From positions 434,001 through 498,000 of the forward strand of contig NZ_VAJM01000003.1 of assembly GCF_005771675.1 (NCBI RefSeq): a stretch of 64,000 bases of DNA, given 5' to 3'. Under the pieces are notes generated by a model that made no database searches, was not told the DNA's origin, and was given only the letters and a program-made list of their open reading frames with translations. Below are positions 23,034 through 27,687 of the stretch, piece after piece. This DNA comes from Hymenobacter jeollabukensis. GTDB lineage: Bacteria; Bacteroidota; Bacteroidia; Cytophagales; Hymenobacteraceae. The position numbers were made by a program, and so were the translations under genes. How positions within the stretch are numbered: position 1 is the stretch's first letter; every line of letters starts with the position of its first letter.

Positions 23034-23454
23034 CGATAAGCAAGCCAGAGCTGAACGGGCAACGGGAGCGGTGGGCTAGCGCGGGTCTATGTCCCGCCAG
23101 GAATGCCGGCAGGTTTTGGGGACCGAAGCAGGAGCCGGCGGCAAAGGTACGGCCTGGCTCGTGCGGGGCCTCCGCAACGAGTACGCCGCCCGTGTGGCTC
23201 CAGCGGCAGCGCGCCGCGCCGGGTGGTCACAAATCCTATACTGAGCAAAGGAAGAAAAAGCAGGATGTTTTGCTTAAGTGGCTGTTGGCTAAGCGGTTGG
23301 TTTTTGTGGGGGGGTAAATGCGCCGGGTGCCCGGTGGTGGCCGCGTCACGGGCGCGGGGCGTTCTTCCTGGCGTGCCGGGGCCGGGTGGCCGTGCTTTGC
23401 CGCCCTATGCCGCGCCGGGGCTAGCTTGCCGGCGCACTCATGTTCGCTTAGCTT
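23034..23454. other. 421-bp divergent intergenic region without a recognised gene
   Basis: This gap separates the minus-strand hydrolase from the plus-strand barrel array and must hold promoters for both. Short frames through it have the composition of shadow frames and no recognisable domains. I see no hairpin or repeat of note. Confidence 0.5.
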
Positions 23455-24204
23455 ATGCTCCGTTTCAGTTTCGCCACGCTCTGCCTGGCCGCCTGCGCGC
23501 TGGCCGCCCGGGCCCAGGCGCCTGATACCACGACCACCCATCGGCACGAGTTGGGGCTGACGGCCAGCCCGGTGCTGAACCGGTTTTTCACCCGCAACCG
23601 CGCCCTGCCCGTGGGCCTGCTCTACAAGCGGCGCCTGGGCACCGGTGGCCGCGCCTTGCGCCTGGGCGCGCAGGGCAGCTACCAGCGGCAGCAGCGCGAC
23701 GACCCGTACTGGCCCACCGTCAACGACGACTTCGACTACCGCACCACCCAGCTGGAGCTGAGCGCGGGCCTGGAGTGGGTGCGCCCACTCGGTCGGCGCT
23801 GGGCCGTGGCCGCCGGGGCCGATGTGGGCGCCGGCTACCGCCGCGAGTACCGGTACCGGCTCACCTTCAACACGGGCAACACCGGCATCCGTGACCAGAA
23901 CGGCAACCCCGTGCCTGTGTATGAGGAAGAGGAGTTTACTTTCACTTATCGCACAGCAGTGCTGCGTCCTTTCACTGCCTTACGACTCTATGTCACGCCT
24001 TGGCTCTACACCAGCTTCGAGGCAGCCGTAACGGGCTCTTTTACCCGTTTTCGCACAGACGGCAGCGCCAGAAGAGTACGGACAGACACTAACGAAGCGT
24101 ACATACAGACATATAATGGCAGTCCGCTTTACAGAGAGGATGCCTGGAATTTACGCTTGCAACTTCTCTGTCAGGTGACGGTGCATTACTGCTTCGGCAG
24201 ATAA
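23455..24204 (+). CDS. Tandem outer-membrane barrel protein, copy 1
   Basis: A 249-residue protein: signal peptide (MLRFSFATLCLAACALAARAQ), then about 150 residues almost identical to copies 2 and 3 (from APDTTTTHRHELGLTASPVL to GNPVPVYE), then a divergent tail and a conserved end QVTVHYCFGR. Alternating hydrophobic residues, aromatic girdles (WAVAAGADVGAGYRREYRYR) and an aromatic near the C terminus suggest a small outer-membrane barrel of the OmpW/porin-like kind. Function unknown. The signal peptide differs from that of copies 2 and 3, and homology to them begins exactly at the cleavage region. Base composition drops in the divergent tail (about 23911-24170). Confidence 0.85.
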   Translation: MLRFSFATLCLAACALAARAQAPDTTTTHRHELGLTASPVLNRFFTRNRALPVGLLYKRRLGTGGRALRLGAQGSYQRQQRDDPYWPTVNDDFDYRTTQLELSAGLEWVRPLGRRWAVAAGADVGAGYRREYRYRLTFNTGNTGIRDQNGNPVPVYEEEEFTFTYRTAVLRPFTALRLYVTPWLYTSFEAAVTGSFTRFRTDGSARRVRTDTNEAYIQTYNGSPLYREDAWNLRLQLLCQVTVHYCFGR

Positions 24205-24287
24205 CCTAATCCCGTTTTTCGTCTTATGAAACACGTTCACAAGCTCCTGGCGGGCTTGGCGTGGATTCACTACCGCTTTGCTTGTCG
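24205..24287 (+). repeat. Array spacer 1, holding a relic copy of the downstream gene's start
   Basis: An 83-bp spacer identical to the one at 25041-25123. It starts with the same 21 bases that precede the T9SS gene at 25895 and contains ATGAAACACGTTCACAAGCT from 24226, matching that gene's start with few changes before diverging near 24257. The relic frame reads 21 codons (MKHVHKLLAGLAW...) and stops at TGA 24289-24291, overlapping the ATG of copy 2 as ATGA. Confidence 0.85.
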
Positions 24288-25040
24288 ATGAAGTACTACC
24301 GCGCTCTGTTACCGCTGCTGGCGGGGCTTCCTATCACTTCTGCGCAGGCCCAGGCGCCTGATACCACGACCACCCACCGGCACGAGTTGGGGCTGACGGC
24401 CAGCCCGGTGCTGGACCGGTTTTTCACCCGCAACCGCGCCCTTCCCGTGGGCCTGCTCTACAAGCGGCGCCTGGGCACCGGTGGCCGCGCCTTGCGCCTG
24501 GGCGCGCAGGGCAGCTACCAGCGGCAGCAGCGCGACGACCCGTACTGGCCCACCGTCAACGACGACTTCGACTACCGCACCACCCAGCTGGAGCTGAGCG
24601 CGGGCCTGGAGTGGGTGCGCCCACTCGGTCGGCGCTGGGCCGTGGCCGCCGGGGCCGATGTGGGCGCCGGCTACCGCCGCGAGTACCGGTACCGGCTCAC
24701 CTTCAACACGGGCGACACCGGCATCCGCGACCAGAACGGCAACCCCGTCCCCGTCTACCAAGAAGATCGTTCCACCTTTACCTACCGCACGGCGTTGCTG
24801 CGCCCTTTCGCCTCCGTGCGTTTCTATGTTACGCCCTGGCTCTACGCCAGCCTTGAAACCAGTATTACTGGCTCCTACACTCGGCTTGATGATGTGTTTT
24901 ATTCTAAAAGGGTACGTACTGATACCAATGAAGCATACATCCAGACTATCAATGGAAACCCTTTGACCATAGACTATGACTGGCATTTGCGACTACATCT
25001 CATCCGTCAGGTGACGGTGCATTACTGCTTCGGCAGGTAA
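24288..25040 (+). CDS. Tandem outer-membrane barrel protein, copy 2
   Basis: A 250-residue protein. Signal peptide MKYYRALLPLLAGLPITSAQ. Over bases 24288-24758 I find only two differences from copy 3, both silent (24491 and 24740). From about 24759 to 25004 the sequences diverge strongly, then the last 10 codons match again (QVTVHYCFGR). The upstream frame opens at GTG 24261, but the ATG at 24288 begins a proper signal peptide and overlaps the stop of the relic mini-frame (ATGA), which suggests translational coupling. Predicted outer-membrane barrel; ligand and function unknown. Confidence 0.85.
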   Translation: MKYYRALLPLLAGLPITSAQAQAPDTTTTHRHELGLTASPVLDRFFTRNRALPVGLLYKRRLGTGGRALRLGAQGSYQRQQRDDPYWPTVNDDFDYRTTQLELSAGLEWVRPLGRRWAVAAGADVGAGYRREYRYRLTFNTGDTGIRDQNGNPVPVYQEDRSTFTYRTALLRPFASVRFYVTPWLYASLETSITGSYTRLDDVFYSKRVRTDTNEAYIQTINGNPLTIDYDWHLRLHLIRQVTVHYCFGR

Positions 25041-25123
25041 CCTAATCCCGTTTTTCGTCTTATGAAACACGTTCACAAGCTCCTGGCGGGCTTGGCGTGG
25101 ATTCACTACCGCTTTGCTTGTCG
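25041..25123 (+). repeat. Array spacer 2, identical to spacer 1
   Basis: Identical by eye to 24205-24287. The relic frame runs from ATG 25062 to TGA 25125-25127 and overlaps the ATG of copy 3. Two identical spacers indicate that at least one duplication of the whole spacer plus barrel unit (836 bp) was recent or has been homogenised. Confidence 0.85.
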
Positions 25124-25873
25124 ATGAAGTACTACCGCGCTCTGTTACCGCTGCTGGCGGGGCTTCCTATCACTTCTGCGCAGGCCCAGGCGCCTGATAC
25201 CACGACCACCCACCGGCACGAGTTGGGGCTGACGGCCAGCCCGGTGCTGGACCGGTTTTTCACCCGCAACCGCGCCCTTCCCGTGGGCCTGCTCTACAAG
25301 CGGCGCCTGGGCACCGGTGGCCGCGCCCTGCGCCTGGGCGCGCAGGGCAGCTACCAGCGGCAGCAGCGCGACGACCCGTACTGGCCCACCGTCAACGACG
25401 ACTTCGACTACCGCACCACCCAGCTGGAGCTGAGCGCGGGCCTGGAGTGGGTGCGCCCACTCGGTCGGCGCTGGGCCGTGGCCGCCGGGGCCGATGTGGG
25501 CGCCGGCTACCGCCGCGAGTACCGGTACCGGCTCACCTTCAACACGGGCGACACCGGCATCCGCGACCAGAACGGTAACCCCGTCCCCGTCTACGAGGAA
25601 AGCCGCAACACTTTTACTACGCACTCATTGTTCGTGCGTCCGTTTGCTTCTCTACGCTTCTACTATACAGCTTGGCTTTATATCAGCTCCGAAACCAGTA
25701 TTACCGGCTCCTACGCTAAGCTGCGAATCGATACCGAATCAAAGCGGGTCAGACTAGACACCAATGAAGCGTTTGTTCGATCCTACAGTGACCCTCTGAC
25801 AATAGATTATAGCTATGAACTGCGGCTGCAACTCCTCCGTCAGGTGACGGTGCATTACTGCTTCGGCAGATAA
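25124..25873 (+). CDS. Tandem outer-membrane barrel protein, copy 3
   Basis: A 249-residue protein with the same signal peptide and first 157 residues as copy 2. Its tail (bases about 25595-25837; for example RNTFTTHSLFVRPFASLRFY) differs from both other copies, with lower GC and different codon choice, and ends with the shared QVTVHYCFGR. Predicted small outer-membrane barrel, probably surface-exposed through the variable loops. It is followed after 21 bases by the start of the frameshifted T9SS gene, which is the source of the relic sequences in the spacers. Confidence 0.85.
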   Translation: MKYYRALLPLLAGLPITSAQAQAPDTTTTHRHELGLTASPVLDRFFTRNRALPVGLLYKRRLGTGGRALRLGAQGSYQRQQRDDPYWPTVNDDFDYRTTQLELSAGLEWVRPLGRRWAVAAGADVGAGYRREYRYRLTFNTGDTGIRDQNGNPVPVYEESRNTFTTHSLFVRPFASLRFYYTAWLYISSETSITGSYAKLRIDTESKRVRLDTNEAFVRSYSDPLTIDYSYELRLQLLRQVTVHYCFGR

Positions 25874-25894
25874 CCTAATCCCGTTTTTCGTCTT

Positions 25895-27687
25895 ATGAAA
25901 CACGTTTACAAGCTCCTCGGGGGCTTGGCAGCTGCGCTATTGTCGTTGCTGTCCGCTCCCCTCGCCTCAGCCCAGAACTGGCGTACATCAAGGAAGTATG
26001 TCCGGGCGAAACGCGCAGCTACACGCTGGGCAATATCCCGGCGGGCTGGCGCCTGAAAAGCACCCCTGCCAGTATTCAGAATGGCTCATTGACAAATACG
26101 CCGTCCATTTCCTCTAGCCAGGCGGCCACGTTTACCGTCCAATGGAACGATGCGTGGCCCGGCAAGATCACGCCGCAACTGGAAAGCCCCCGTTTTGATA
26201 ATAATGGAAATATAACCGGCTACGATCCTGCCACCGCCCCGGATGCTTTGGTCGAGCTGCTCTCGGTCAAGTCGCTGAGCGGCTGGACGCCGGGGCCCGT
26301 TAGCGGGCCGGCCACCATCGACCCGTGCAGCAGCGGGCAGGCGTACACCTACTCCGTGCCGCAGCGCGAGTTTCCCAGCGCCCCGGGCGACGTCATCACC
26401 ACCTACGTCTGGCGGGTGCCCGCGGGCTGGCAAGTGCAAAACGTGGCGCCCGACGCGCAGGGCGAGTACGTGACCGGCCGCGCCATCACCGTGGTGGTGC
26501 CCGCCGGCGGCGCCAACGGGCAGGTGCAGGCGCGGGCCTACAGCTCCACCTGCAACTTCCAGAACCTGGCCCTGTCGCTCAAAACCTACGTCAGCGACTG
26601 GGTGACGCTCGGCGTCACGCGCACGCCGGCGCTGAGCGTGGCACCGGCCAACCCGAGCCTGACCTGCGGCGATACTCGCCCGCTCACGTTCACGGCCGCG
26701 CTGAGTCCGGCCATCGGCAACCCGGTCATCAACTGGACCTACCCCGCGGGCTGGACGGGACCGGCCACGGGGGCCTCCGTGACGGTGACGCCCAGCGGCA
26801 CGGGCGGCGGCACCGTCACGGCCTCGGCCGTGTATAGCTGCGTGACGCCGGCCGTGAGCGTCTCGCAGGCGGTTTCGGTGGGCTTCAGCCCGCAGGTGGC
26901 CCCGCCCACGCTCAGCGGCCTGCCGCAGCCCGTAGGGGAGGTGCAAGTGCTGTGCCAGCCCACCACCGTGACGGCCAGCGCCCCCGGCGCCACCAGCTAC
27001 GCCTGGACGACCACCGGCTCGCTGCGCGTCAACGGCAGCACCACGGCCACCGGCGCCAGCGTCACGGTGGGCTCGGCCACGGGCGGCGGCAGCGGCACGG
27101 TACAGGTGCAGGCCCTCAACGCCAGCTGCGCCGCCAGCGACCCGCGAGGCTTTCAGGCCAGCTACGGCCCGCCGCAGCCCGAGGAGCTGACCTACAACGA
27201 CCGTGACCTGTGCAATACCGGCATCGTGTTCTTCTCGGTCCGGGCCGCCGACCCCGCCGCCACGTTTCAGTGGTCCATCAGCGGCAGCGGGGCCCGGCTG
27301 CGCTTCGGCTCCACCGGCAGCCAGGTATCCGTTTACATCACCGATCCGCAGGGGACGTTCGACCTGTCGGTGGAAGCGCGTAACAGCTGCAACCCCGCGC
27401 CCGCGCCGGTCAACCCCGTGCAGGTGGGCACCTTCTTCTGCGCTGACTTCGACTACACCTGCGGCATGGGCAGCGCCCGCGCCGCCGCCTACCCCAACCC
27501 CGCCGACGAGTCCCTGACCGTGCGCGGCAACGCCGGGGCCACCCTCTACGACGCCGCCGGCGCACCGGTAGCGCGGCTGGCGCCGGGGCAGCACCAGCTG
27601 CGCACCCGCGGGCTGCCGGAGGGCGCGTATTTCCTGCAGCTGCCCGGCCGCCCGGCCCGGCAGCGGGTGCAGGTACGCCACCGCTAG
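25895..27687 (+). pseudogene. PKD-like T9SS cargo gene with a frameshift after the signal peptide
   Basis: ATG 25895 opens a clear signal peptide (MKHVYKLLGGLAAALLSLL, ending APLASAQ) that stops at about 26055. The body of the protein is in another frame, readable from about 25978 (LAYIKEVCPGETRSYTLGN) to 27687. Joining them needs one extra base, or two fewer, near 25976-25978. The body holds several PKD/Ig-like domains (CGDTRPLTFTAAL, WTYPAGW, YAWTTTGSL) and a type A T9SS sorting domain (AAAYPNPADESLTVRG). The downstream frame alone would start at ATG 26089 and lack a signal, so export would fail. It is either a recent pseudogene, a phase-variable gene without an obvious slippery tract, or a sequencing error. 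Confidence 0.8.

Follow-up and report, generated by a model that had tools for sequence, protein, structure and literature searches.

Spacers of a barrel gene array in Hymenobacter jeollabukensis as probable scars of a tandem duplication that ended within a T9SS cargo gene

Introduction

When a tandem duplication ends within a gene, every internal seam is left with a 5′ fragment of it, and a single full copy stands at the end. Three arrays of barrel genes match this pattern: one in a 64,000-nucleotide stretch of Hymenobacter jeollabukensis contig NZ_VAJM01000003.1 (the whole stretch analysed, hereafter the window), one in G005 of the same genus, and one in G105 of another genus. Nothing essential sets the window apart from duplication-junction fragments in general; its fragment is only ∼12 codons long and happens to reach an ATGA overlap with the next barrel gene.

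PorP/SprF barrels are encoded beside cargo with a type B CTD (PMC9143113, PMC12618676). The present locus resembles that arrangement in that an outer-membrane barrel adjoins a T9SS cargo, possibly as its specific partner (PMC9143113, PMC12618676). However, the cargo is here of type A (TIGR04183) and the barrel gene lies upstream, not downstream, of it; the barrel itself is, by prediction, an 8-stranded, OmpA-like one, and none of 18 members examined matched the PorP/SprF profile. Because the CTD type and the gene order differ, the pair is not classed with PorP/SprF.

The meningococcal tpsA/tpsC arrays are alike in another respect, as truncated cassettes of exported proteins lie there among small intact genes and recombination swaps segments between them (PMC3848433). 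They differ from the present locus in secretion route and in cassette order, which is reversed, the fragments here retaining the 5′ end; neither growth inhibition nor immunity has been shown for the present locus.

Results

Layout of the array

Three tandem barrel genes occupy positions 23455-25873 of the window and are followed by the T9SS cargo gene; the repeat unit measures 836 and 833 bp (Table 1). A pattern scan of 23300-26100 for TTG-N17..24-TANNTTG gave a single match, 5′ of copy 1, and none in either spacer, so copies 2 and 3 are probably co-transcribed from the promoter of copy 1. The first barrel gene of G005 carries the same promoter-like motif at the matching place, with the spacing one base longer. 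Antisense to the cargo gene, on the minus strand, runs a 531-codon open frame (26086-27681), which is probably not a gene, such frames being typical of GC-rich coding sequence.

Table 1. Features of the barrel gene array and its cargo gene (window coordinates)
Feature	Position	Strand	Remarks
Promoter-like TTG-N22-TAGCTTG	23397..23428	+	5′ of barrel copy 1; consensus match only
Barrel gene copy 1, 249 aa	23455..24204	+	Own signal peptide
Variable segment of copy 1, 83 codons	23920..24168	+	Closest to the single barrel of G007
Spacer 1	24205..24287	+	Gap of 21 nt, then relic T9SS start (24226-24260), then 27 nt of different sequence up to copy 2 ATG
Relic ORF 1, 21 codons	24226..24291	+	TGA overlaps copy 2 ATG
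Barrel gene copy 2, 250 aa	24288..25040	+	Predicted 8-stranded OmpA-like barrel
Variable segment of copy 2	24756..25004	+	
Spacer 2	25041..25123	+	Identical to spacer 1
Relic ORF 2, 21 codons	25062..25127	+	TGA overlaps copy 3 ATG
Barrel gene copy 3, 249 aa	25124..25873	+	
Variable segment of copy 3, 82 codons	25592..25837	+	
T9SS cargo gene start, signal-peptide frame, 53 codons	25895..26056	+	Out of frame with body
T9SS cargo body (PKD-like domains, type A C-terminal sorting domain)	25978..27687	+	No start codon before 26089

The barrel and its cargo

An AlphaFold model of copy 2, made with 18 family members, gave an 8-stranded barrel at a pLDDT of 80. The best solved match in the re-ranked list was the OmpA transmembrane domain 1qjp (Z 14.2, 136 residues aligned, 3.2 Å), and the protein is predicted from the model to be a small OmpA-type 8-stranded barrel. 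By the strand list of the model, the variable segment spans strands 6 to 8 and the last large loop. In Pfam, the PorP/SprF profile matched none of the 18 barrel members, for which only weak OMP_b-brl_2 matches below the gathering score were obtained.

PKD-like domains and a type A sorting domain were recognised in the cargo. Its orthologues in G005, G105, G143, and G070 match TIGR04183 at 27 to 44.7 bits (cut-off 23), and the window cargo reaches 19.7 bits, just below that cut-off; the orthologues thus fall under type A and not under the type B CTD (TIGR04131). A barrel gene followed by this same type-A cargo gene was found in 21 surveyed loci from several genera, which makes the pair the ancestral unit in the family. 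The search of genome contigs gave one distant match (26%), in a KSB1 MAG.

The spacers carry the start of the cargo gene

Both spacers have one and the same 83-nt sequence. The initial annotation had read in each of them the beginning of the T9SS gene at 25895, and our comparison with that start (MKHVYKLLGGLAAA...) bears this out: the relic has the ATG and matches at 32/35 bases (24226-24260). The match runs unbroken into the gap and the barrel 3′ end (24158-24260 vs. 25827-25929, 103 nt, 95%). Since this block spans the barrel 3′ end, the 21-nt gap, and the cargo start, the relic match is homology, far beyond chance. The start context of the cargo is retained as well, with the 21 nt upstream and the first 12 nt of the gene identical. 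The short frames described earlier were also found as claimed, each reading 21 codons (MKHVHKLLAGLAWIHYRFACR) to a TGA that overlaps the next barrel ATG as ATGA (24288, 25124). The breakpoint does lie inside the cargo gene, after ∼12 codons; its position, earlier put at ∼24257, is now placed nearer 24260.

We consider it very probable that the spacers are scars of a tandem duplication whose right breakpoint fell inside the cargo gene. The proposed derivation of the relic from the downstream T9SS gene is upheld by the contiguous homology, by the ancestral pair, and by the arrays of G005 and G105. The identity of the two spacers could also be expected of a conserved intergenic element, a regulatory or recombination site that merely resembles the cargo start. 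Such an element is contradicted by the homology, which at the cargo gene extends on across the gap and the end of the barrel, and no copy of it was found elsewhere in the organism's own genome or in the family genomes searched; we regard it as extremely improbable. Outside the window, the own genome gave only weak, short matches to the seam. The full junction was not found in the 203 other genomes of the family set searched (204 genomes, one per species). A relative with the spacer and without the T9SS gene, which would have spoken against derivation from that gene, was likewise sought among these 203 genomes and not found: G007, of the same genus, has a single barrel gene (72% identical) and no cargo gene, directly upstream of the same glycosyltransferase gene, and it carries no relic.

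The 27 nt between the relic and the next barrel ATG resemble the leader of the first barrel gene in G005 (shuffle p 0.003). Their similarity to the leader of copy 1 is weak, with p 0.37 under linear gaps and 0.03 under affine gaps. Judged by these alignments, they are likely a native barrel leader.

Arrays in relatives

The geometry expected of a duplication scar is seen directly in G105, where a 1688-bp tandem duplication (98.3% identical) runs from upstream of the barrel gene into cargo codon ∼228. The second unit continues into the complete cargo gene, and a third, diverged barrel gene lies further downstream. G005 likewise has a barrel gene, a cut cargo gene (∼codon 163), a second barrel gene, a second cut cargo gene, and a third barrel gene with a full cargo gene, between the same flanks as in the window, a GH5-like gene and the glycosyltransferase gene. 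These two arrays lend support to the duplication origin of the relic. Inner cargo fragments retain their 5′ end in 3/3 arrays (window, G005, and G105), which is what such a geometry predicts; the full cargo copy comes only after the last unit in the window and in G005, and after the duplicated unit in G105. In the G005 array (L013 2800-9500, minus strand), the barrel C-terminal halves and the cargo 5′ ends vary and the block from mid-cargo to the N-terminal half of the next barrel is 92% identical, a modular layout as in the window.

Alternatively, the inner cargo genes may once have been complete and have been deleted later from codon 12 to the barrel leader. The inner cargo fragments of G005 have decayed further, the second having an in-frame TAG, and cargo genes are broken in many relatives, both of which fit this history. 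However, the one-step duplication in G105 already yields a cut inner cargo gene, so that an extra deletion is unnecessary, and we think a later deletion rather doubtful.

Possible translational coupling

The relic might instead be a working upstream ORF, kept in frame by selection, from whose stop reinitiation at ATGA couples the translation of copies 2 and 3. Among prokaryotic coupling arrangements the 4-nt ATGA overlap is the commonest, and reinitiation at ATGA is well documented (PMC6728339, PMC10666635). Since the start context of the cargo is present in full in the relic, ribosomes that initiate on the cargo might initiate on the relic too. The 83 nt between one barrel's stop and the next barrel's ATG are too long a distance for direct coupling without the relic. 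Against this, ∼23% of random junctions run into ATGA without an earlier stop (with frame and leader base order randomised), and the run-in counts only once, because both spacers copy one seam. Two identical spacer copies also give no sequence signature of selection, and in the seams of G005 and G105, as read, no relic stop overlaps the next start. The 21 nt from the barrel stop to the relic ATG predict weak coupling, as a separation of that length nearly abolishes it in E. coli and Haloferax (PMC10666635). The overlap further presupposes that the barrel starts at the ATG (24288/25124); this start yields a better signal peptide than the in-frame GTG at 24261/25097, from which the barrel would be started without an overlap. 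On balance, a selected coupling frame appears unlikely.

As the scar of a duplication, the 21-codon frame requires no function. Should ribosomes still use the cargo-derived start, reinitiation at ATGA could feed copies 2 and 3 as a by-product.

Mosaic history of the barrel copies

Among the three copies, the mature N-terminal part of the barrel (135 codons) is 98-100% identical, and its identity to G007 is 82%. The next 83 codons are only 54-63% identical among the copies, and the last codons together with the spacers return to 94-100%. In the variable segment, copy 1 has a higher nucleotide identity to G007 (73%) than to copies 2 and 3 (63% and 54%). This mosaic profile indicates that the flanks have been homogenised within the genome and that the variable segments arose before the split from G007. 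Diversifying point selection was rejected as the cause of their variation: third positions in the segment are 35-44% identical among the copies vs. 95-99% in the N-terminal part, which is better explained by old divergence between homogenised flanks.

In the signal-peptide region, copy 1 shares only 39% identity with copies 2 and 3, vs. 98% in the next 405 nt, which means that a single recent duplication is not the whole history and that recombination followed. These identities indicate that the first duplication was followed by unequal crossing-over or conversion, which reshaped the array.

The cargo gene is recurrently broken

The window cargo is not one frame. The frame of its signal peptide (25895-26056) differs from that of the body, whose alignment begins at ∼25978-25990, and the body frame, 602 codons long, contains no ATG, GTG, or TTG before 26089. 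The shift lies directly after the signal peptide and may be either a genuine lesion or an error of the assembly.

Disruption was found in 16/21 cargo loci, namely the window and L040, L041, L043, L046, L048, L049, L051, L052, L053, L056, L058, L059, L064, L065, and L068, in which the sequence is otherwise conserved. Uninterrupted genes are present in G005, G105, G143, G070, and as one of two in G109. The lesions comprise frameshifts (window, G107, G162, G109 C19, and G051), in-frame stops (G097, G101, G071, G121, G089, G049, G100, and G022), in-frame stops together with a frameshift (G131/G129), and a changed start codon (G069). A programmed frameshift was rejected as an explanation, because the lesions lie at different places and include plain stops and a lost start. 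A control T9SS cargo, an M43 protease, showed no internal stop in 23 full-length matches, nor in the partial matches listed, from 100 family genomes. The difference is significant (16/21 vs. 0/23, Fisher p ∼5e-8), with the 21 loci picked by similarity and the lesions of G131 and G129 shared; the control scan counts stops and not frameshifts, although full-length open matches exclude frameshifts too.

The lesions are young, as sister pairs are otherwise well kept. The pair G121/G069 is 95.7% identical, with mismatches of 26/17/42 by codon position and no indels; in G070/G100 the mismatches are 38/21/110, with no internal indels. Recurrent breakage of the cargo explains why cargo remnants are tolerated.

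Other changes were seen at some of the surveyed loci. In G129 (L048 3920-5290, reverse-complement coordinates), ∼1.4 kb of other sequence stands between the barrel and the cargo and replaces the cargo signal peptide. The barrel genes of G131 and G129 (L046, L048) have an in-frame TAG before the last strand, and that of G089 (L064) is cut short too.

Discussion

From the arrangement of the array we infer the following order of events. The ancestral unit would have been a small outer-membrane barrel gene whose stop lay ∼20 nt ahead of a T9SS type-A cargo gene. A tandem duplication reaching from just before the barrel gene to ∼12 codons inside the cargo gene would have joined the first 35 nt of the cargo to a short leader, presumably of barrel origin, ahead of the next barrel copy. 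The upstream region and its promoter-like motif would thereby have stayed with copy 1, and the remainder of the cargo gene with the last copy. The third copy may have come from later unequal crossing-over or gene conversion among near-identical units; the seam would have been carried along, which accounts for the identity of the two spacers.

The scar is real, well explained, and ordinary in kind, with good independent support. Through it the assembly history of a surface-protein array is traced to a breakpoint, backed by independent cases in relatives. A literature search returned no direct precedent for duplication-junction relics or for barrel arrays with variable C-termini, and the conserved pair of barrel and T9SS type-A cargo appears to be undescribed in the literature found. 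As a practical warning, gene callers will annotate these cargo genes short or split.

The wider pattern, with a conserved pair, homogenised N-terminal halves, and recurrently broken cargo, is more interesting than the scar itself. Speculatively, and in our judgment quite improbably, the barrel and the T9SS cargo may form a cognate surface pair under opposing selection, in which barrels are kept, multiplied, and made to exchange their C-terminal halves and the cargo is repeatedly and recently switched off. Opposing selection would be expected if phages used the cargo as a target, if it were a surface factor that is costly to bear, or if it were an antagonistic protein with the barrel as its receptor or protective partner. 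If this were so, the scars would be one of several routes to barrel copies without cargo. With a cargo that is broken in most of the genomes that have it, the pair lends itself to testing how a surface protein is inactivated time and again.
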